DNA of 64,000 nt from Isoetes taiwanensis. Its lineage: Eukaryota > Streptophyta > Lycopodiopsida > Isoetales > Isoetaceae. The stretch's first letter is position 1, and each line of letters starts with the position of its first letter. The translations under genes and the position numbers were made by a program. The notes under the pieces are model-generated. The model saw only the letters and a program-made list of their open reading frames with translations. It ran no database searches and was not told where the DNA came from. This document shows positions 51,637-64,000 of the stretch, piece by piece. Location: contig JAJEKV010000059.1 of the NCBI GenBank assembly GCA_021234155.1, forward strand, positions 1,754,182 through 1,818,181, given 5' to 3'.

Positions 51637-53020
51637 TTTTTTTTTTTTTTTTTGAAGGACGAAAGCCAAGTACTTTATTAATCAACAATAAGAGTACAAG
51701 ATTTACATGTGTTGTCTATCTGTGTAAGCACAAAAAAGATGCCACAGGAACAAGAGCCCGAAGCACAATGTACTTACTCCAGAAGAGGAGACTAATGATA
51801 GGAATCAATCTGAAGATACTGAACCCAAATCCGCTCTGCCATTTCTGAGTCAATGGAAGAACACTCATAGGCTGTCAGTATCTTTTTTTGGGCCACCGCA
51901 ATAACACTATGTGAAGATACAAAAATACCCTGAAAAATGTGATGTCTGCGACGCTCCCATATAGACCACAAGATCCAACCAGAACCAAGATGGAATGCCC
52001 TCTGTTGAGCTGGGGGCCAAGCACTGGGATAGGATGCCAAAAGGATGCATCGGCAGTCCAATGTACTGCTGAACAGACTTTGTAGCCAGGACCACGCCGG
52101 CTGAACCTCTGGACAGAAGAAAAGACAGTGCTCAAGAGTCTCAACATCCGCAAGGCAAAGCGGGCATATCGCAGATGTTTGCGGATCATAACGATGTCTG
52201 AAAGCATTAACACGCAAACACCTGTGGAGAATCTGCCACCAGAGAACTGAGACCTTAGGGTGGAGTAATTTATCCCAGGGCCAACGCCAGGTGCGGCGCA
52301 AAGTGAGCAGAGTGAGCTGTGGAATCTGTAGATGCCACCCATCCGGCAATGGGAGGGGTTGCGGTGCTAGGAGAAGGCGATACACTGATCTGACAAAGTG
52401 CTTGCCTCTGTGAATATTTTCATGACAGTCCCACGGTGTCCTCTCGGCAACACCAACCTGAACCCTCAGGGGCAAATTCTCTGCAACCTTCTCCCATACA
52501 GACACATCCCATCGGGAAAGCAGGAACTTTGCCTGGAACTCAGGCCAAGACAATAGACGGCCAGCTTCATACCAAGCTTGAATAGAGACCACACCTGCAA
52601 GAATCCACCGTCGCTGTGTAAGGGGATGAACTGATGCAGCCACTGGAGGTGCCGAGGGGTTGGGAGGCAGAGGTGCCCACCACCATGGAGTCTCCAACAG
52701 AACGTGGATGGAAGGACACGGCCAAAAGAGGTGTTTGACTGCATCCCATGATGTCAGCAATCCACGCAGAAATGGAGAAGCATTTGGAAAAGGCTGCAAT
52801 GGCTGAAATAATGCCCAAGGGAGGACCGGCTTGACTGCCTTCTTACCTAAAGGGATACAGTGACCAAGAGACTGTCTAAGAAGGCGCAGACACCATTCAA
52901 GATTCTCCAAATGAACTTTGAGATAAGAACTTTGCTTTGCAATAAGAAGTCCATCATACCCAAACCACCCGCCCATTTTGGAAGAATGCACTTCGACCAA
53001 GCCACCTTCACCTAACGTGG
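51637..53020 (-). mobile_element. LINE, 3' half with RVT zinc-binding domain
   Basis: The T-run 51636-51653 and adjacent GAAGGACGA are the 3' end on the minus strand, with a polyadenylation-like AATAAA in the minus-strand tail. The minus-strand frame (51792 to about 53000) begins in the region after RT (KMGGWFGYDGLLIAKQSSYL, LHPLTQ-type HPLTQRRW) and holds the zf-RVT domain WWQILHRCLRVNAFRHRY and CPLCLADVETLEHCLFFCPE. The RT catalytic core is absent. The frame is open for 400 codons, so this copy is relatively young. The right border is approximate and no clean TSD was found. Confidence 0.85.
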
Positions 53021-53168
53021 ACATTGCATTAACATGAATTTTATTAGTCATATATGTAGTCCTAATTAACAACAAAATATGGACTAAGTAGCTATGCCAG
53101 ATCACTGAAATATTTTCTAAGCAACTAAAGACCTGTGAAATATACTGATCCACTTTGAGCTTTGGCTG

Positions 53169-54316
53169 CAAGAAGCTCCAACTCTGCAACTTACATTGTC
53201 CCTTCATAAAATTTTGGTTGTAAGAAGTTGCAACTCTGCAACTTATATTGCCCTTTTGTAGTCAATCTGTATGATCTTAAAGCTACATAGAAACATTCTT
53301 CAGATCTTTATTTCAAATGTGAATGGAAAAAATGTTGCAATGTGGAGCATGGACCGAATGGTTTAAGTATTTCTACAATAAAGTTTTTAAGATATAGCGG
53401 GGTCGTCTAAGATAATGGCCCAAATCTTATTATAAAGCCCCCAATCATAGCCTAGCTTCAAAAGCTTCATGACTATCTAAGTAGCATGGATGGATTACAA
53501 CATTTAACTTATCATACCATAATCAATGTGGGTCTGGGTAACAAAACTCTCTCCCACATGCAACAGTTAAGCCCATTCTCCAAAGAAGACTGATACACTT
53601 GCAGAACAATGGAGTAGAGGAGGCCAATTAAACTTATGAGTGAAACCTCTATCCCTCTATCAAGCACTGTGAAAGTCCTATTATTTTTAAAAGTTCTCAT
53701 TCAATATCACATATCAATGAATGGTTCATGACTAATTAAGTAGCATGGATGGATTAAAGCATTTAACTTATCATACCATAATCATTGTGAGCTTGGCTAA
53801 CAAAACTGTCTCCCACATGCAAAGGTCAAGGTCGTTCTCCAAATAATATTATCATACGCCTGCAGAACAAAGGAGTGACGACGTGAAGTTTAAACCTATC
53901 TGTGAAGCCTTTATCTTGCATGTCATTTTCAATGAACAGGGGCATTCTTACGTGACTAAAAGTATAGCTAAGCTAGTCTAATATGTCTGGATCTGCAGAA
54001 TTTACCTCAAAAATTTCATCAAACATGTCCTGCAAATGATGAAAGTAATCAAGAACTCAGATTAATTATCCTGCATAATTTACACGTACGCATACTGCCT
54101 AATTATATCTATAAAACCTTCACTTGCAGATCCTGACCATTTGTGTAAGATGAGCAAACATGACACCTCCAAAAACTTGGTCTCCAAATTGACATTTATC
54201 AGAATTATGGACATCAAATTGTTTAGATAGGCACTATCCACCTGCAGCCACGAACATCTTTCCTGCATTTGACAACAAAAAGGTAGCTAGAAATTTAATT
54301 TTCAAACGGCCTAAAG
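53169..54316. other. Non-coding interval with two direct duplications
   Basis: A ~50-bp motif (AACTCTGCAACTTA) is duplicated at 53169-53206 and 53219-53256. A ~260-bp direct duplication (53467-53726 and 53727-53950) shares AAGTAGCATGGATGGATTA and TTTAACTTATCATACCATAA. No gene recognised. Confidence 0.55.
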
Positions 54317-54344
54317 GTGAAAATAAAATTAAAGGAGCACGTAT

Positions 54345-54640
54345 TTAAAATCTTAGAAACATCTCTGTGGCAACTGCACTCATTGACAGCAATAATCTTA
54401 GGCTATGGCAATGTCAAAGATGCACCAATGGCTGTTGATATTTTTGAGAGAGTGAAAGAAGGAGGCAGAGAATCAGACAGGATCACACTTCTCAGGGGAC
54501 TCAATTTGTGTGCTTGAACAGCAGCAGTGCAGCAAAGGAGATTATTGCACAACTACATGAGAAATTCAGATTACATGCAGAATTTGTCTTTACATAATCA
54601 TCTAATTAACATCTATGCCAGTTGTGAAAGTATAGGGGTA
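54345..54640 (+). pseudogene. PPR-protein fragment
   Basis: The plus-strand reading HSLTAIILGYGNVKDAPMAV, DRITLLRGLNLCA, then after an in-frame TGA AAVQQRRLLHNYMRNS and LHNHLINIYASCESIG, follows the plant PPR (PLS-type) pattern of about two repeats. The stop and the absence of further repeats on either side show it is a fragment. It lies just outside the accessory gene described next and probably has nothing to do with it. Confidence 0.7.
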
Positions 54641-54905
54641 AAAGCACGCTAGGGTGATAAAAAAAGGGTCATTCCAATACATTACATATTAGGGGATGTA
54701 GTTAATTATAGCAAATTTTTAAACGCCATCATTAAACAAAAATGGCATTATTCGAGTGTACCAAGAATTCCCCCCAATTTTGTTCCCCCTGTTTGTTGGC
54801 TAACCGAGCGGAGCTCGGAGCTCGAATTGTTTTTGATTCTAAGAATTGGCACTGCTAGAACGTTTAAACCGGTTCAGATCCTCGCATTTCCGTGTGATCT
54901 GCCCT

Positions 54906-55125
54906 GTAAGTTTAGATTTTGTGGTTTTGGATTTTTGTGGTTTCGGTCCATCAATGAATTGAAGAAATAGTAGAAGTAAAAGATTAAAATGTAGCATTCT
55001 AAACACTAAATCGATGTAGAAAGAACATGCTTATTACCAATGCCTACGGTTTAAGGTCTGATCTTCAAATGTTTTGGGCGAATTTTTCTTCTGACTCCTT
55101 GTTTGTTGCTTTGTTCAATTTGCAG
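54906..55125 (+). other. 5'-UTR intron of the RING-Ulp1-HAD gene
   Basis: Donor CCCT/GTAAGT at 54906 and acceptor TTTGCAG at 55125 lie upstream of the first ATG (55137). A leader intron is common in plant genes and supports a transcribed origin for this locus. The upstream exon starts at an unknown point after about 54780. Confidence 0.5.
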
Positions 55126-55136
55126 GCCCTGTGAAC

Positions 55137-56358
55137 ATGGCAAAGACCCCAAAGAAGACACCAACCAAGGGTTCGAGGAAGTCTCCAAGGGTTGGAAAGC
55201 CTCTAGCAAATAAAAAAGCTTCAAGTTCAAATGCTAAAAGGGAAATTTTACTTCCCGATGACACCAGGTTTTCTGTAAGGCAGCTCAGACAACTCAATTT
55301 TTGTGATGTTTATGAGAAGTATGATGCTATGGTGAGAGAGATATGGGGAGATGAAGCACCAAGCAGGTATGGCTATAAAGATGACAGAATCGATGTGAGG
55401 TGGACAGAAGAGTTTTACAAATGGTATGAATTTTCTTTCGGCAGAAAAGATGTTATGAATCACTATGTCCCTCTGTACTTTGCAAGGGCATTTGCATTGC
55501 ATTTGAAAGGTGCAGAAGTGGACTGGGAAGATGTTAAAGCATGGGCCAGATCAAAACAAAAGGATTCTGATCTATCTAGTGAGGTGGTGACAGTGAAATC
55601 TAGCAATGCAAATGCAAAAGGGCCAAAAACTTCAGTTAAGAGTTACACAAAGGAGCAATTAGAGATTATCAGTAACTTCTTAGACAGCAGATCTATTGTG
55701 AAGACATCTTTAAGCAAGAAATTAGCAGAGTTACAGGAAAGAAGGCAAGAGATCCTTGATTCATTGAAGCACAAGGAAGGGGAGAGAGCAGTCTATGTTA
55801 GGCTGGTCCAGGAAGCAGAGAGGAATGTTGAAGCAAAAATGGCAGCATTGGAAGATCAACAATCAAAACTTGATCAAACATCAGAAAGTGCCATGAGATT
55901 TCAGCACTTAAAATGGAAAATTGAAGATGCTATCGAGCAAAAAGAATCAAGAATGCTGGACCAGAGGGAGCTGCAAAAATATATTGACATGAATGTTACA
56001 GAGTTAAAAGATGTAGATGCAAGGATTCAATCATTGGTTGCTGATGTGAGCTCAGCTGAGGCAGGAGACAAGAAACTAATGGAATTGAGGGAATTTTTAG
56101 AGCATTCCTCAATTCTTACTTTGCAGCCTCCTCCTCTTCAATCTACAATTGCAGATGAGATTATTGTTCAGCCTTTTTCTTCATGTACATATTGTGAACA
56201 ATGATTCGGTATGAATCCAGTGGTTCTGGCACCTTGCAGACATCCTTATTGTCTCTTGTGTATATCCTACCTTGCGAGCACAAAGGTTTCATGTGTTGAT
56301 CCTGATTGTTCATGGAATAGCAATTTTCCTGTAGCACTTGGACTACTTACAGCAAAAG
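55137..56358 (+). CDS. Accessory gene, exon 2: basic tail, unknown domain, coiled coil, RING finger
   Basis: ATG 55137 opens a Lys/Arg/Ser-rich tail (residues 1-35, KTPKKTPTKGSRKSPR), likely nuclear or DNA-binding. Residues about 40-145 form a compact domain I do not recognise (RQLRQLNFCDVYEKYDAMVR, WTEEFYKWYEFSFGRKDV). Residues about 180-330 are a long charged heptad-rich coiled coil (KLAELQERRQEILDSLKHKE). Residues about 350-400 are a C3HC4 RING: CTYC, then APCRHPYCLLC, then SCVDPDC. RING domains usually bind E2 enzymes and act as ubiquitin or SUMO ligases. TGA at codon 356 (56202-56204) falls inside the RING between its first and second cysteine pairs. The frame continues without change, so this is a point nonsense mutation (for example CGA to TGA). 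Confidence 0.7.
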
Positions 56359-56965
56359 GTTAGTACTGTACATTTGAATTAGAATTTCTTTTCCATTTCA
56401 AGTAGTTAAAAATATTTTTCTTCCATGCGGTTAGGCTTACATGTAGATAGTTAGATACAGTCTTTGTAGGTTCACTCATATGTAATCTGTCAAGTGGACT
56501 ACTTATTCTTAATGATAGAATAGCTGACAGCCTGTTATGTAGATAGCTGATAGCTGATAGCTGATAGCCTGTTATGTAGACAGCTGATAGCTGATAGCCT
56601 GTTATGTAGATAGCTAGAGTAATGTAGATAGCTGATAACCTGTTAATATAGAATGTAGCAATTGATAGATACATTGCTATTTAGCTGTCACCTTACATTT
56701 TGATTCATGTTAAATACTTTATGGCTTATTAGTGGGTTAAGTACAGTATCATTTACATTTACATTGACTGTCTTTTAGAACAGTGAGTTTCAAAATACAT
56801 TTAGTATGTTGAAAGGTTTAGATTAGATGCATGGGTACATTGTTCATTGTCAGTACATTGTGAGTACATTCCGAGTACATTGTTCATTGTCTGTACATTG
56901 TAGAATACATTCTGAGTACATTTCTTAATTGATGGTATGATTTACATAATGTTTGACTATTGCAG

Positions 56966-58377
56966 GTGACCTTGGTAGCATAAGGAAACCAGAAAAAGGT
57001 ATATGATATTGTTTGATGGTTAATCTTAGCTCTTTTTCTTAGCTCAACTCTTTTTTCACTTTGCACTGTAGATGTCAGCAAGAAAGCAGCAGAACTTTCT
57101 TCCAAGGAAATGGATTTGACAGATGGTCAGGAAGATTTGGGAAACACTTCTGCATGGGCATCACCTCTAAACCTTGTGAAGTCTTTTGAAGAAGAGATTG
57201 GGGAACCAGTGAAGTCATTAGACACATGTAAGTAACTATCACATTTGATTAATTTACAATTCCTAATTTAATTTTAATGTCATTTGAGCTTGATCTGTCA
57301 CTTGTAATTACATATAGCACCAAGCAAACCGATTCAAACTTTTGTGGATTCGCAGCCGAGGTGAAGAAGTTGAAGCAGAAAGCAGTAGTTAATACTGCAG
57401 GTATAGTGCATCTTCTATTTGCTTGTGTGTATTGTATTATTTAAACAACATTGTTTCCAGGTTCTTCAAGTCTTTCTACACAGTATAAATTGCCAGAGTA
57501 TAAAGTGCCAGATTCCTCAGGTTTTTCGGCACAGCAGAGTTTTCCAGAGAAACCAATCTGAAAATCTATTAAGCCAATGCCATCATTTGACGAGGAAATG
57601 AAAATGCTTACGAGTGATGAATCAACAGGTATAACAATCTAAAATTATGAATGACAATGCATTGAGTAACTTTGCTGACTAATTTATGCAGAATCTATGG
57701 AACTTGATGATTCTTCTGCAGCCCTTGTTCATGTTCAGGCAACCATTGGCCAGATAGAGGATAGTGGTTGTATTAAAGGAGAGGAAGAGGTGGTGGAGGT
57801 ACAACAGATCCAAAAGGATGATGTGGTGGTGGAGGTACAACGGATCCAAAAGGATGATGTGGTGGTGGAGGTAACCAGGGTTGAGGAAACAAAGGAGCAG
57901 ACCAAGGTTGAGGCAACAAAGGTTGATGAGACAGAGGCAACAAAGGTTGATGAGACAGAGGAAACAAAGGTTGTTAAGCTAGAGAAGTAGACAAGAAAAA
58001 GGAAGGATCAATTGCAAAATACAGCTGCAACAAAAAGGTATTTATTTACTATTTTACTTGAAGCTATTAAAGTATAATAGATGAATAATCTTATGATAAC
58101 TTGTGCAGGACTAGAAGCCACACATCATCTGGTAGTGCTCGATCTTATGCATCTGAAGATGACACCAGAAAAGAGTAAGCAAGATGTTGCTGTAGTTGCA
58201 CTTCATTTGCATTCTCACTAATGCAAGTTTGGTTTACAGAGATCTTGAGACCTTGTTGAAAATAGTTCCATGCTATCCTTTCCAGCAGAAACCTTTAATC
58301 AAGATGACTAAATACTGTGTGGAAGGTCTTTGCAGAGACAGGCACATGTCGAATAGGCATATAGATATATTTGGAAG
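56966..58377 (+). CDS. Accessory gene, exons 3-9: acidic/repetitive linker
   Basis: Seven short exons with in-phase GT-AG introns encode a low-complexity linker. Exon 57692-58037 holds two internal tandem repeats, a 30-bp unit (KDDVVVEVQRIQ) and a 24-bp unit (ATKVDETE), then a basic patch (TRKRKDQ) after an in-frame TAG at 57988. Exon 57461-57628 has an in-frame TGA at 57559. Exon 58240-58377 looks structured (LLKIVPCYPFQQKPLIKMTK, YCVEGLCRDRHMSNRHIDIF) and probably begins the protease region. The intron at 56359-56965 carries an AGCTGATAGCTGATAG-type minisatellite (56520-56640) and a GTACATT-rich stretch (56820-56930). Confidence 0.5.
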
Positions 58378-58449
58378 GTAATTTGGTTAGCTTTTTGTTT
58401 GCAGTCTGATTATAATTGGATCTCTAACCTCACTACTTTTTCTGAATAG

Positions 58450-59258
58450 GTATCTGACTAGCATTATGCCTGACAAATGGCGTGATGCATTTTATTTCTT
58501 CCCATCGGAGAATTTTTTAGCGTACAGAGCAGCATATAACAAGCTGTCATCTGATGCAACTTCCATGGTGCAGTCTGGAACTGTTGCAGTTCAAAAAGGG
58601 CTTCAGGGTTTGGTCTTTAGTAAATGCCAGTACATTGTGGTTCCAGTGCAGATTGAGGATCCTATGCACCATGCACTGGTCATTATTGTTTTAGACAAGG
58701 CCAAAAACTGTAGCAACACACCTTTGTCTTCTCCATCTATACTTAGTCTAAACTCCCTGCAGAGTGCAAAGGTTGACACGAGGATGGTCATGATGTAAGT
58801 GCATTCACTGTTATGAGTTTAATGTTGCACAAATCTGATGTTATTTTCTATTACAGGCTTCATAAAGACATCATTACAGGATTGACTAATTCTAGTTCTC
58901 GCAAGATTGATGTTTATGTGAAGAATTCAGTGCAGAAAGAAACCACACTGGAGGTTCCACAACAAGCTGACCTGGCCTCTTGTGGTCTTTATGTTATGGC
59001 TTATATGCAAGCTTTTGTGGATGCCCAGGTGCAGGCTAAGAGCATGGTAAGAATACATACTAAAAATTCTTTTTTATATAAAATTCTTCAATTTTGAAAA
59101 CTAACTTTTCCCATTATTTCACTAGTTCTCTTCAGAATGGTTTGATGCGGAGTATGCACAGTCCAGGAGACATGTGCTCATTAAAGCCATGATTGATTAC
59201 AAGAACCACCTCAAGACAGGCACCTCTAGCACCTCTAGCTCATCACAAGAGAAGCATG
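58450..59258 (+). CDS. Accessory gene, exons 10-12: Ulp1-like C48 cysteine protease domain
   Basis: Exons 58450-58794, 58857-59046 and 59126-59258 are in phase. The pattern is that of Ulp1/SENP SUMO proteases. It has a Trp/Phe-rich start (PDKWRDAFYFFPSENFLAY), a beta strand YIVVPVQ, the catalytic His region (EDPMHHALVIIVLD), an ILSLNSLQ strand where the family has the catalytic Asp (Asn here), and the oxyanion Gln with the nucleophile in VPQQADLASCGLYVMAYMQ. His, Gln and Cys are kept and Asp is replaced by Asn. Activity is therefore possible (papain-like proteases use Asn) but unproven. Ulp1-type proteases are known cargo of several plant transposons, which fits the context. Confidence 0.72.
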
Positions 59259-59425
59259 GTAGTGCTTAACTTCTTACAATGATATGAATTGAGGCCAATT
59301 GGCTTTATTTTTGTTTGCAAAAAAACTGAGCCATTTTTGGCTTTTTGTAATATTGCTAATATAATCAATGAATGGTGGTTATCCTAGTGGTATCATATGT
59401 TAATTAAACTTTGCTTCCTTACAGG

Positions 59426-60100
59426 CCTCCTTATTTTTGAGATCCAAGGTGTTCTGGGTTACTTTTATAGAAATCCACCAATGAATGTTTCCTCTTTCAA
59501 GCCTATAACTACAGAACATGGAGTTTTCTACTGCAGACCAACTATGAAAGCAATACTTCAATATGCATCCTTTCATTGGCATTTGGCCATCTGGTCAACT
59601 ATAAACTTAGACATCATAACATCAATTTTAGACAAGCTCTATGAAGATGGCATCCCAAAATTTAAACATGTTTATGGAAGAGAGAGTTGCTGGGGACTTC
59701 CTCACACAAATTCAATTGGTGTAAACCCTCAAGTGATGCCTATGGATAGTTTTATCATTGAATATCCTCAATACAATGGTCGGCTCTGTGGTGTTTTTGA
59801 TTCTAAGGAAAAGGCTCTTTTCAACAAAGATAGTTATGTTTGCGTGCCAACCTGGACACCTTTGATAGAACGTGATGACCATTTAAGCTTCTTCTTTGAT
59901 TGGTTGGTAGGGTTCAAATATGCACCAAATTTTGCCACTTACTTGAAGGAGCATAAGTTGGATAACTCTTGGGACATATATGGTGACATGATCATCAAAA
60001 GTGTAGTGGATGAGTATGGTGAAGATATGAACAGGATAAGGGCGTTATGTACAATGCCTTCATTGACTGAATCTGCTCCTTCTCTAGATGTGGATGTGTA
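59426..60100 (+). CDS. Accessory gene, exon 13: FCP1/HAD-like domain with degenerate catalytic motif
   Basis: This 225-codon exon starts in phase with the preceding one. LLIFEIQGVLGYFYR sits where FCP1/NLI-type HAD phosphatases have DxDxT/V, and RPTMKAILQYASFHWHLAIW, then ST (motif II), INLDIITSILDKLYED match the following helix-strand pattern. Downstream are DSFIIEYPQYNGRLCGVFDS and SFFFDWLVGFKYAPNFATYL. Both catalytic aspartates are replaced (E and Q), so a pseudo-phosphatase is predicted. The fold assignment rests on pattern only. Fusion of such a domain to RING and Ulp1 modules is not an arrangement I know. Confidence 0.55.
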
Positions 60101-60216
60101 AGATTCCACACTAGATCTTCTGAACTAATGCTTATATTGATATTTATGTTGAGCAAGTTTCATATTTAATTCTGTTTGTAAATACTAATAACTTTAACCT
60201 CTTGTTATTCATTCAG

Positions 60217-60644
60217 AAATTGAGGAATGTGAAATTGAAGAGGAATGTGTAGATGGAGAACCAGGTGAAGCAGAATCAGCTGAATCACAATATGTACCAG
60301 ATGAACCATTCTCTTATCTTAGCAGCTTGCCTGGATTATGGGAACAGGTCGAACAGGTTGAAAGCAGAAGCGAAAGGGACGAAGTGCTGAAGATACTTTG
60401 GGCAATTCATAGCATTTATGATCCTGATCCTTGGGGAAGAAATCAATTGCCAAGTGCATGCCAGTCAGGTGCGTTGCGTGAAGGCTGGAGTGGGTTACCA
60501 ATTGCAAGAGAAGTAGCAGTAGCCTTTGCCACAGCTAGTGATACCATTTTTTGGGGCTACAAGAACATTGAAAGATTGAATGCAATACCTCTGAGATATC
60601 AGCCACTAGATGATGTAATAGTTAGACATGAAAAAAATAACTGA
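60217..60644 (+). CDS. Accessory gene, C-terminal exon of unknown function
   Basis: The acceptor ATTCAG at 60216 opens a frame reading EIEECEIEEECVDGEPGEAE, then SLPGLWEQVEQVESRSERDE, the WAIHSIYDPDPWGRNQLPSA motif, and ends at TGA 60642. The acidic start followed by a Trp-rich segment is unlike anything I recognise. The phase does not match the end of the previous exon, so there is either a lost splice site or indel near 60100, or this belongs to another transcript. It ends about 160 bp before the transposase stop codon on the other strand. Confidence 0.4.
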
Positions 60645-60804
60645 TGTATACTGTAAGAATGTCAATAACAGAAAACTCAATGTACTCTACCACAATGTAA
60701 TATAAATCATGTTTCAGCAGCTTCTCTCTATTTATCTATTTCTCTATCAAATTGCTTTTCTCCAAATCTGTTTCAGTGATTATCAATAATGTGTTTCATA
60801 AGAG

Positions 60805-62626
60805 CTATTCCAAATCATCTAGCATTTCAGGCAAACTTCCCAGAAGCATTTCATGCACATCATCTGGCAATGCATAAGCTGCAGAAGCACCTTTTACTTT
60901 ATAATTCACTTTTGGCATCCCAAACTTTGCTCCAATAACAGACTCTGCAGGTACCAGAACTTCTTTGTCATCCAGTAACTTATACTTGTGGTGACAACCA
61001 GGCAACTTTTGATAGTAGTAGGCTGCTATGACTGATTCACCCATATGATGATAATTTTTGTAGTCATCTGTGACATTATCTTGCAAAACAAACTTTGCTT
61101 TTTTGCAAAGGAGGACATAGTATGGCACATTTTCCTCATTTCCTGGTATAGCAAAGGAAGCAAACCTGTCACCTACCTGCACTAGATCTTCTAGCTCTTC
61201 ACTTTCAGTTGCAAATGCACCAGTTTCCTCATTCTGTATTTCACAATGAGTACTTGCTATGGGTACTAGCTTCTTTAATTGCCACTTCCCACAGAATGGA
61301 ATGGACTCACAATCGTCCCATTCAAAGTTGATGCAAGCATTGCAGAAGCAAGATAATGGCCTCACCATTACTAAGGTGGGGTCAATTGGACTTATAGAAG
61401 CTATAGCATGCAATTTTTGATTACCAGGAAGAGGTTGCACGTCCAATGCATTGGTTCTATCAATGTCTGACTCCTTCACTTCCCAGTATACTCTGTTAAC
61501 ATTAGACTGCTTGCTCCTCAAGACAACACAAGCATCACGTGCACCTTTAATCTCAGTTCCATGCTCTCGTAACTGCTCAGCTGCAAGTACCTGCTTGGCC
61601 TTGGCAGCTTCTCCATCATGTTCACCTTTTCCATGCCCAGAACCAAAGTAATTCCATTGCATCCGAATGCCATATCCAACATGGTACCTGGTAATGAATT
61701 ATAAATTTCTTCTGGACTTGTATTGTGCAGCACAACCATCAGACCACACAATATGATACTGTACATGAGATCCACCATTCTCTTGCAGCCATTTCAGATG
61801 AAGCTTAAATGCATGTTGTACAAAATGTGTATCATGATTTCTGTCATCAGAAATATACAAGTGAGCTGTCTTCTTTAATTTGCCATTTACCTTTAGCATG
61901 GTAATCTGTACCATTATAGTAATTTGGTCTGCATTCCAATGCTCTGACTGAACCTCTTTGAAAGGCTTCAATGTATAATTTCGGCAAAGTCGACCACTGA
62001 TATCACTGAATCATGTCTCATGTTTTGAACACATCTTCTGAATTCTTTGCTTTGCCAGTGAGCTGCAGAGTTGTGATGGAGAAATGTTTTCATGTGACCA
62101 AACATGGCATCCAGCATTGCAGGTGCATCTGTTGTTTTCTCCACCAATCTGAGTCTTCTTGAGACTCCTTTCTTAGATTTCTCATCCACATAAGAGTATA
62201 TTTGCCAATTCACTTCATTTTCGATATCCTTTTCAGTTTCTTTTGGACACAAGACAATGTTCTGCTTACCACAGCTCTTGCAATCACTTGTAATACAATT
62301 CAGTTTGTGCCACTCTTCATTATCCTGTTTTGGACAAACCATACTCCTCCATAGAGTGCTGACATTGCAATATGTATGCTTGTGTGCCTGACAAATTCCC
62401 TCATTTCTGTTAGCAGCACAAACATCACAATTGCAGCTACAGTTGATGTGGAGCTTAGCCCTCATAGAATTGAATGCTTTCCTATAGTTCTCTGCTTGCT
62501 CATGCTTGACACAACAACATGTGTTTCTTTCCTTCAGCTTCCTTACACAGTCAGGTTTGAGGTGTTCAAACAATCTGATGCCAATGTCTGCCTCTGGATG
62601 TTGCTCCACAAAGTTCTGGTACAACT
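60805..62626 (-). pseudogene. DDE-type transposase, copy A (minus strand)
   Basis: It reads from LYQNFVEQHPEADIGIRLFE (62626) to MLLGSLPEMLDDLE (stop about 60805). In order it has a CCC-x2-H motif (ERNTCCCVKHEQ), a cysteine cluster (CSCNCDVCAAN, SDCKSCG), the first catalytic Asp in SVVDFAENYTLKPFKEVQSE, the second in VWSDGCAAQYKSR, and the third acidic site in GSGHGKGEHDGEAAKAK. A Cys/acidic C-terminal domain follows (CFCNACINFEWDDCESIPFC). A 1-nt deletion near 61975 and an in-frame TAA at 61699 break it. The N-terminus is lost at 62627, where an LTR-like repeat begins. The SDG/HGKG signature is one I associate with animal transposases, possibly Sola-like. The superfamily is uncertain. Confidence 0.75.
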
Positions 62627-64000
62627 TGTGACGTTCCCCAGAATTATACGCTATAAATACGTACAATTCTGAGCCACGTCACTGTACAAACTACCTATGG
62701 TAGCTTTGTACACATATTGGGAAGCATTGGAACCTTAGCTAAATAACTTAGCTAACCTTAGGAAGGGCCATTTCCATGTGGCGCCTCCCTAGTGGTTCCC
62801 CATGACACGTGGCATCGTGCCATTGGAGATGAGGTGGCATAGCTTATACCTAACCAATTTAGGGCCAAACCCTAACCCTAGCCACCTTTCTCAGCCTCCC
62901 CACTCTGTTGCACCTGGAGCTCTGATTCAGGTCCCGTTTGATACGTTCTAGATCGATCTTGCAGCTTTGTAGGAGAGGAGGAATCGCTCTGCAGCATGGA
63001 GACACCAGGATCTGGAGGCAGCGGATCAGGTGGAGGTAGGAAGAGTAGATCTTAGTTCGACCTTGTAGTTGAGCCTCCTAGATCCTGTTCTTGTCATGAA
63101 CCCTAACTGTTAGTTAGGTTAGTGTTAGATGTTCTTGTTGTTCTTCTATGATGATGTTGGGATGATCTCTATGTTCTTGGTTGATCATGTTTTGCTCCCT
63201 TGTATTGGGAAGGGGGTAGAGACCAGCCTAGTAGTATGCTCCTAGATGATCTGTTAGATCCCATTAGTTGCGGCCTGTGCATAGGAGCCCACCTGGCTAT
63301 GGAGGCTATGCGGGGACTTAGCACCAGATAACGGGGTCATAGGCAAGATAGAGGGAGCCCCTTCCCGATGCGCGGCATCTGGGGGCTTGGCATGTGCTAG
63401 GCCTATAGTCGGTCACTTCGTGAGGGCCGGGTATGGGCTCGACACCTCCTGGATCAATGGTGTCGCCCTGATCCTCAAGAGTTGCAAGTGTCGGCTTGGC
63501 TCTTGTTTTGGGGGGTTCAGTCGTGTACGGTTCGTGTGTTGCCACGAACCTCTAGCCACCTATTGAGCCTATGATTTCCGGGAGGGGGAAATGCAACCCC
63601 TCCTGCCTAGTCGGACTGGGGAGATGCAACCCAGAGTAGCCTCATTGGGTGATTCCACGAGGTTGCGTATCCGTAGGCTATAGTCCTGGTTCAGCCTGGT
63701 TTAGCCTATCTGCATAGTATGCACAGGAGGGGCGGATGGAGTGGTCACCCCTAGCCATTGTCTTATGCCAGCCCTGCCATTTGCCGTGACTCGGTCTGCT
63801 CTATCTTGAGGCCCTAGCCGTCAGTTGATTTCCCTTTACGAGTCTGAGCCGGGTAGAATCCATGTGATATGTTGCTATTGATGTTCTATGATGTTCTTTG
63901 GATGGATGTACGATGTATTATGATATTTTGCTAGTGCTGATGTATTGTTTTGCTTCCGCTATTGATAGGAGCCTTAGGGAACGGGCACGAAGACACCTCC
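62627..64000. repeat. Probable LTR of another retrotransposon, continuing past the window
   Basis: The transposase frame ends exactly at TGTGACGTTCCCCAG (62627), a start typical of plant gypsy LTRs (TGTGACG...). CTATAAATACG follows at about 62650, and then about 1.3 kb of GC-richer sequence without a recognised gene, unlike the AT-rich DNA to the left. The five bases before it (CAACT, 62622-62626) would be the target duplication. The other end lies outside the window, so the class and length are unproven. The minus-strand frame at 63318-63545 is Pro/Thr-rich and not recognised. Confidence 0.45.

Follow-up and report, generated by a model that had tools for sequence, protein, structure and literature searches.

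A two-gene DNA transposon family of Isoetes taiwanensis with a RING-like, Ulp1 and NIF gene beside its transposase

A stretch of 64,000 nucleotides of the lycophyte Isoetes taiwanensis (contig JAJEKV010000059.1, positions 1,754,182 to 1,818,181, or C1066:1754182-1818181 in our numbering), hereafter the window, carries at positions 54636-62626 a broken copy (7,991 bp) of a DNA transposon with two convergent genes. One gene encodes a transposase with a predicted DDD/E core. The other, which we call the partner gene or gene 2, joins a RING-like finger to a Ulp1-type (C48) protease and a HAD-like domain of the FCP1/NIF kind. A first-pass annotation of the window had proposed that such a gene and a DDE-type transposase form one transposon unit, and we find this unit in many copies in the genome (1,658,258,908 bases searched in 1,110 contigs). 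The two genes stay together beyond chance and both have evolved under purifying selection. We tentatively read gene 2 as an element-encoded editor of SUMO or ubiquitin marks.

Linkage of the two genes

We took the transposase loci with at least 60% identity among the matches listed, 64 including the window, to which the following counts refer. A match to the NIF or the N-terminal part of the partner gene lies within 20 kb of 56 of them, where the chance expectation is 0.23 if NIF matches only are considered and, by the same formula, about 0.4 with the NIF and N-terminal lists combined. NIF neighbours were found within this distance at 51 loci and are convergent with the transposase at 50; the corresponding numbers for N-terminal neighbours are 35 and 34. 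Within 3 kb, all 41 NIF neighbours are convergent, with a median of 892 bp between the matches. The count dropped nine second pieces of transposase loci, included 150 of the 153 NIF matches, and left out 14 of the 120 N-terminal matches, namely 11 second pieces and those at C930:16614569, C963:714827, and C1034:4525643. The last three leave the counts unchanged: the transposase next to C1034:4525643 already had an N-terminal neighbour on the same strand, and the other two are beside none of the transposases counted.

The first-pass annotation regarded intact copies of the transposase without this gene as evidence against the unit. No clear case of this kind was seen: seven of the eight transposases fetched as candidates for lacking the partner gene have it or parts of it. 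Eight loci with at least 60% identity have no listed neighbour, of which four were fetched and four left out (C767:105435, C938:273012, C112:1084503, and C974:12643842). N-terminal, C48, and NIF parts are present at C1034:24430496, NIF and C-terminal remnants on C1047, and a C-terminal remnant on C1068. At C1034:8789010, an open frame of 343 codons whose match stops at residue 177 of 297, partner parts are absent in 7 kb. For one of the loci left out, C767:105435, a C48 match lies at a distance of 1.9 kb. The other four transposases fetched, which are divergent (49-50% identical) and have long frames, come from C926, C1100, C1048, and C220, and all have partner parts, downstream and in opposite orientation: N-terminal, C48, NIF, and C-terminal parts on C926, N-terminal and C48 parts on C1100 and C220, and NIF and C-terminal parts on C1048. 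The C1048 transposase has one internal stop and that of C926 is without the stretch bearing the first Asp. Parts of the partner gene are also present in C919, C907, and C1030.

Complete elements and short copies

The first-pass annotation had suggested a search for intact copies with terminal inverted repeats on both sides. Five complete elements of 8.9-10.0 kb were found, each bounded by inverted repeats and by a 4-bp sequence that is identical on the two sides:

C1094:4693855-4703820, complete element, duplication TATT
C257:178281-188019, complete element, duplication GGTT
C1007:13182443-13192101, complete element, duplication AACA
C907:50874240-50883124, complete element, duplication TTGA, one end degenerate
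C919:13339874-13349036, complete element, duplication GGAT, variant repeat

The ends read GGGTA... or GGGCA..., with one degenerate end GAATA.... Across the genome, the pattern of the inverted repeat has 1,335 forward and 1,350 reverse occurrences, and a reversed control pattern has none. Many of the 100 listed repeat places are plus/minus pairs about 300 bp apart, from which we chose 20 short copies (L034-L053). These non-autonomous copies of about 320 bp have a 4-bp duplication in 19 of 20 cases, with no fixed target sequence, and were presumably moved by this transposase family. Such elements with the same inverted repeats are abundant (e.g., C1:1320439-1320759, L035). None of the complete and short copies whose duplications were determined has a TTAA duplication.

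Anatomy and decay of the window copy

The copy in the window and the retrotransposon that interrupts it are organised as follows:

54636..54656, plus strand, left terminal inverted repeat of 21 bp (GGGTAAAAGCACGCTAGGGTG), at the alignment end common to copies
55137..56358, plus strand, partner gene coding exon 1 (open frames, AlphaFold2 model of a relative, RING pattern)
56835..56921, plus strand, cluster of six ATGTAC/GTACAT sites in partner-gene intron 2 (element positions 2200-2281)
57072-57227, 57318-57400, 57461-57628, 57692-58037, 58109-58174, plus strand, small middle exons
58240-58377, 58450-58794, 58857-59046, 59126-59258, plus strand, four exons of the Ulp1/C48 protease (Peptidase_C48 profile)
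59425..60095, plus strand, FCP1/NIF (HAD-like) exon with degenerate catalytic motif FEIQGVL (NIF profile)
60217..60644, plus strand, partner-gene C-terminal exon, conserved in L005, L007, L062, and L064
60805..62626, minus strand, transposase main exon, in three open pieces and truncated (open frames, genome matches)
62627..64000, no strand assigned, long terminal repeat (LTR) retrotransposon inside the transposase gene (LTRs at 62627-64419 and 66863-68680)

The boundaries first proposed, 54906-62626, had to be revised at both ends. The left end, 54636, was set by alignment with the copies of C1007, C1094, and C1052 (L004), is shared by those of C257 and C608 over the last ~50 bp, and its inverted repeat recurs at the opposite end of complete copies. 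Position 62626 is the insertion point of the retrotransposon and not the end of the element. The LTRs of the latter are 89% identical, about 1.8 kb each and separated by about 2.4 kb, and the second lies beyond the window. The right end of the element was not found in the 7.8 kb past the window, and since it is missing from this copy, a scan of 53500-64000 for inverted repeats gave no terminal pair. The two genes are indeed tail to tail at 160 bp, as first described, with the partner-gene stop at 60642-60644 and the transposase stop at 60805-60807 on the minus strand.

Exon 1 encodes a basic start, a helical domain, a coiled coil, and a C3HC4 RING-like finger, and 55137-56201 has at least 120 matches in the genome. 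The middle exons (57072..58174) code for an acidic region with tandem peptide repeats (exon stretch 57781-57981), and their splice dinucleotides are mostly common to the window and four other copies. The compatible exon phases claimed for the whole gene hold for its second half, where five exons (58241-58377, 58450-58794, 58857-59046, 59126-59258, and 59425-60095) form a continuous reading frame of 492 codons. Upstream, an in-frame stop at 56202-56204 falls within the RING exon, and a frame break and more stops lie in the exons 57318-58037. The splice donor after the NIF exon differs among copies, which makes its 3' boundary provisional. In the transposase, the open pieces are separated by a frame change and an in-frame stop. 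With both genes broken and the transposase gene cut by the retrotransposon at 62627, the window copy is dead.

Just outside the transposon there is an 87-bp direct repeat (53501-53846, 85% identical, 259 bp apart). An open frame of 489 codons on the minus strand (51792-53261) resembles the C-terminal part of a reverse transcriptase of the long interspersed nuclear element type, and a short frame adjoining the transposon (54299-54517) has what we take to be a resemblance to a pentatricopeptide repeat.

Selection on the two genes

Ratios of nonsynonymous to synonymous rates (dN/dS) were calculated by the Nei-Gojobori method for the pairs with a computable dS, i.e., 9 of 24 for the partner gene and 6 of 21 for the transposase. 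The nine partner-gene ratios range from 0.12 to 0.33. The N-terminal exon gives 0.17 (window vs L020), 0.22 (L026 vs L010), and, in three other pairs, 0.31, 0.31, and 0.33; the C48 exon gives 0.12 (window vs L005) and 0.32; and the NIF exon gives 0.21 and 0.23, at dS of 2.7 and 3.2, near saturation. The six transposase ratios are 0.10-0.19. Judged by these values, both genes have been under purifying selection in the lineages behind the copies, with a slightly weaker constraint on the partner gene.

Domains of the partner gene

The spliced window product matches the Pfam profile Peptidase_C48 at 40.0 bits (E 4.9e-10, cut-off 20.7), in agreement with the protease first proposed. Single exons score 22.8 in the window and 30.4 in L005, and are below the cut-off in L010 (19.9) and L009 (13.8). 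The domain keeps Cys, His, and Gln. The C3HC4 spacing of the RING-like finger is open in 7 of the 11 loci scanned (L001, L002, L026, L054, L056, L061, and L065), and the pattern is not open in L009, L010, L062, and L063. The coiled coil of the first-pass annotation was recovered in the AlphaFold2 model of a relative, at residues 135-284, after a helical domain at 14-110; block means of the predicted local distance difference test (pLDDT) exceed 90 over residues 161-260. Profile comparison of the N-terminal part with the PDB gave mostly coiled-coil chains at E 0.004 or worse, and a fold search with its model gave no match at E 0.001 or better.

The NIF domain scores 25.0 bits for 59427-60098 and 23.3 in the spliced product, over the cut-off of 21.8; other loci score 22.1 (L027) and 47.5 (L029). 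The catalytic motif of NIF/FCP1 phosphatases of the HAD class is DxDx(T/V). None of the sequences FEIQGVL (window), FDLQGIL (L027), and FDIDGGL (L029 and L054) conforms to it: the motif is altered in the window and L027, and both Asp are retained in L029 and L054. A single TGA is present in the NIF exon of many of the copies listed. Its position, close to the end of the exon, is identical in L002 and L004, the two copies compared, and the window copy is without it; the exon may end there in these copies, or the protein may be shortened. The C-terminal exon has no Pfam match.

The transposase

The C-terminal 297 residues of the transposase have at least 140 matches in the genome. Conserved residues of the main exon include D213 and D297, and D297 is followed at a distance of 38-42 residues by an acidic cluster (336-340); L024 is without the first acidic position. 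In the AlphaFold2 model of a relative (mean pLDDT 54.7), these positions map to strands 1 and 4 and to the beginning of the last helix in a predicted RNase H-like core (residues 200-379). This core compares with Mos1 (4u7b) at VIA Z 8.5 over 172 residues and with a retroviral integrase (7ouf) at VIA Z 8.6, values near 8 being common in this comparison. The top structural match is an Argonaute-type SPARTA chain (8i87, VIA Z 9.0), and the RNase H fold is also that of Argonaute-type chains. A Foldseek search with the model of the transposase found nothing at E 0.001 or better. In Pfam there was no match to a transposase, nor to an integrase or a MULE (Mutator-like element) among 14 sequences, and a profile search of the PDB gave nothing useful. 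No relatives were found in the viral_contigs and plasmids sets. The predicted fold class is thus DDD/E with an RNase H-like core, which does not by itself fix the superfamily.

The ATGTAC motif

The five complete elements contain 32, 32, 27, 26, and 12 sites of ATGTAC or GTACAT (1.3-3.3 per kb). Three families have 2.8-3.3 sites per kb and a fourth 1.3, and the density in seven control stretches is 0.3-0.6. In the 7,991 bp of the window copy there are 14 sites, where shuffled sequences have a mean of 3.6 and a maximum of 10. Among 2,080 hexamers, the motif ranks first when z values are summed and third when the lowest value of the four families is taken. In the C1007 element, 25 of the 32 sites are non-coding. 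Clusters are found in partner-gene intron 2 and in the intron that precedes the main exon of the transposase, at distances of about 2.1 kb and 1.3-1.6 kb from the element ends, and do not adjoin the inverted repeats.

Possible roles of gene 2

The element is best explained as a two-gene cut-and-paste transposon in which gene 1 provides a DDD/E transposase and gene 2 an accessory protein owned by the element. The product of gene 2 would be a nuclear editor of SUMO and ubiquitin marks, assembled by its coiled coil, whose Ulp1 half would strip SUMO-like modifiers and whose RING half may recruit an E2. It could be held at the element, possibly via the intronic ATGTAC repeats. Modified silencing factors would then be removed or turned over, or the transposase stabilised, leaving the element expressed and mobile. 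The clustering of the motif in introns may give some indirect weight to the roles suggested by the first-pass annotation, i.e., protecting the transposase or countering silencing. Such an editor, acting in either of these two ways, is in our view a serious possibility that stops short of being probable.

Several observations weigh against this proposal. The catalytic Asp of C48 is replaced by Asn in all nine loci compared (window, L001, L002, L005, L007, L009, L010, L054, and L065), the position being assigned via SENP7, a marginal hit in the PDB (E 0.09) with which the Cys aligns. Since papain-type enzymes use a Cys-His-Asn triad, protease activity would still be plausible. The RING finger stands as a cysteine-histidine spacing and not as a profile match: all Pfam scores are below the cut-off (20.5 against 25.2 for the window piece, 20.3 in L002, 18.8 in L001), the relative L026 has no match, and the region has low confidence in the AlphaFold2 model of a relative, so that RING activity is putative. 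The HAD-like assignment holds by profile score. The NIF profile matches 7 of 10 loci, with L054 matching by construction since the profile was built from the window, L027, L029, and L054. As it is undetected in L010, L063, and L065, the domain seems to be optional in the partner gene. With the motif lost in the window and the domain undetected in one lineage, the HAD-like domain is not a fixed enzymatic part. Pfam scans of the exons gave no match to DUF1985 or DUF287, which are associated with VANC, an accessory protein of VANDAL transposons.

Other such observations concern the unit and the motif. Saturated dS in 15 of 24 partner-gene pairs and 15 of 21 transposase pairs leaves these without a ratio, and the highest partner-gene ratio, 0.33, is among those that could be computed. 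One NIF and one N-terminal neighbour within 20 kb are not convergent. Below 60% identity, a partner match (C-type N-terminal query) is within 20 kb of at least 8 of the 67 transposases listed, a tally that dropped 7 second pieces of 116 matches; these eight neighbours are all convergent. The C1054 element, whose flanks do not match, was excluded from the complete set. The ATGTAC motif was spotted before the hexamer ranking was run, and its z in C919 is just 1.4. The copies of ~320 bp, which have no partner gene, contain 26 sites in 6,450 bp (20 copies), which would fit a binding site of the transposase equally well.

The last point leads to the notion that gene 2 is a transposition cofactor, which would assemble with the transposase through its coiled coil and control the SUMO or ubiquitin state, the activity or the turnover of that protein, the ATGTAC motif marking transposase sites. 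The tight linkage with the transposase and the selection on both genes argue for this, as does the motif in short copies that need just a transposase in trans. In addition, Ulp1 and OTU domains are fused to Ginger1 transposases, and a role of Ulp1 in transposition has been suggested (PMC2836005). The position of the C1007 clusters, in introns and away from the inverted repeats, speaks against it. We consider a cofactor possible, if on the doubtful side.

The editing of SUMO and ubiquitin marks may also be put in a more specific form. A lycophyte transposon group would have evolved sequence-targeted anti-silencing independently of VANC: a RING-coiled-coil-Ulp1 protein would read the intronic ATGTAC arrays of its own two genes and edit SUMO or ubiquitin marks on the silencing complexes there, and the HAD-like part would now be a binding module. 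We deem this unlikely in all its details. Lower still is our estimate for an action away from the element and without sequence targeting, such as a genome-wide removal of SUMO from silencing complexes. The C48 domain and the RING-like finger speak for it, yet the concentration of the motif within elements suggests local action, and general deSUMOylation would presumably be costly to the host.

A highly improbable explanation is that gene 2 was captured from the host and is carried along as a passenger that does nothing for the element. Plant transposons are known to capture host domains, Ulp1 included (PMC13317346), and many copies of the gene have decayed. However, decay and eventual loss would be the likely fate of a passenger, and dN/dS is well below 1 between families and the gene is present beside transposases that are about 50% identical. 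Finally, the stops between the RING and protease parts of the window copy might indicate three unrelated host genes or chance neighbours mimicking a fusion, the outcome that the first-pass annotation had named as contrary to its claim, but we reject this as scarcely credible given the open C48 and NIF exons in phase over 492 codons, the splice dinucleotides mostly common to five copies, the order of parts recurring at many loci, and the purifying selection.

With a selected second gene that joins RING-like, SUMO-protease-like, and phosphatase-like parts, the family offers a natural test of the use that plant transposons make of the protein-tagging system of their host. The open C48 exons, the defined motif, and the ~320-bp non-autonomous copies as reporters are the parts that lend themselves to tests.

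Comparison with known systems

A close parallel in organisation is with the VANDAL MULEs of Arabidopsis. VANDAL elements with VANC and the Kaonashi elements (KIU) also combine a transposase with accessory genes, and Ulp1-bearing relatives of VANC have been reported among KIU, where the precise role of Ulp1 is given as unknown (PMC13317346). VANC proteins have tandem peptide motifs and target tandem repeats in the introns of VANC21 and VANB21 (PMC5735166); similarly, the element described here has an element-specific motif repeated in introns and an accessory protein with tandem peptide repeats. In contrast, VANDALs are MULEs without terminal inverted repeats, and the present element has inverted repeats of 21 bp and 4-bp duplications. 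The partner gene also has RING and NIF parts, neither of which is named for VANDAL accessory genes in the excerpts available. MULE duplications are of 7-12 bp (PMC10741241), and with its 4-bp duplications and no MULE match in Pfam, the element is placed neither with MULEs nor with Kaonashi.

Among elements with duplications of this length, Sola transposons have a DDD transposase, are mostly 2-9 kb long, and have been found in a moss (PMC10741241). The present element resembles them in its 4-bp duplications (19 of 20 short copies and the five complete elements) and in its predicted DDD/E RNase H-like core. Sola2 families have inverted repeats of 12-13 bp and AWWT duplications (PMC3627910), unlike the duplications without fixed sequence found here, and the excerpts describe no RING-Ulp1-NIF partner for Sola. 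Compared by description only, the element resembles Sola and is not filed as such. Ginger1 shares the 4-bp duplications and the Ulp1 domain, but there Ulp1 is fused to a Gypsy-type integrase, the ends are TGTNR, and the duplications are CCGG or CCGT (PMC2836005). The GGG ends, the lack of a fixed target, and a Ulp1 domain in a separate gene on the opposite strand set our element apart from Ginger1. Kolobok duplicates a TTAA target (PMC9587614), and the variable duplications found here, none of them TTAA, exclude membership in that group as well.

Parts of the partner gene have counterparts in other mobile elements. A C48 peptidase is also present in CryptonF and CryptonS, those with C48 being from oomycetes; unlike the element described here, Cryptons use a tyrosine recombinase (PMC3212892). 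Chapaev and RAG1 provide a precedent for a RING finger encoded by a DNA transposon, but within the transposase itself, and a 2015 paper states in its available text that the RING and Chapa domains occur in no other known transposable elements (PMC4411706). Among the open-licence papers listed by our searches, no title or opening of an abstract describes an element with such a partner gene, and among these papers the combination of RING-like, Ulp1, and NIF parts in a separate gene of such an element appears to be new. Ulp1 domains recur in unrelated transposons, i.e., MULEs, Ginger1, and Cryptons (PMC13317346, PMC2836005, PMC3212892), and here one is found in a separate, selected gene with a RING-like finger, next to transposases with only about 50% identity to each other. 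That a lycophyte element lacking MULE features has this domain suggests that such domains may have been acquired repeatedly for a shared purpose.

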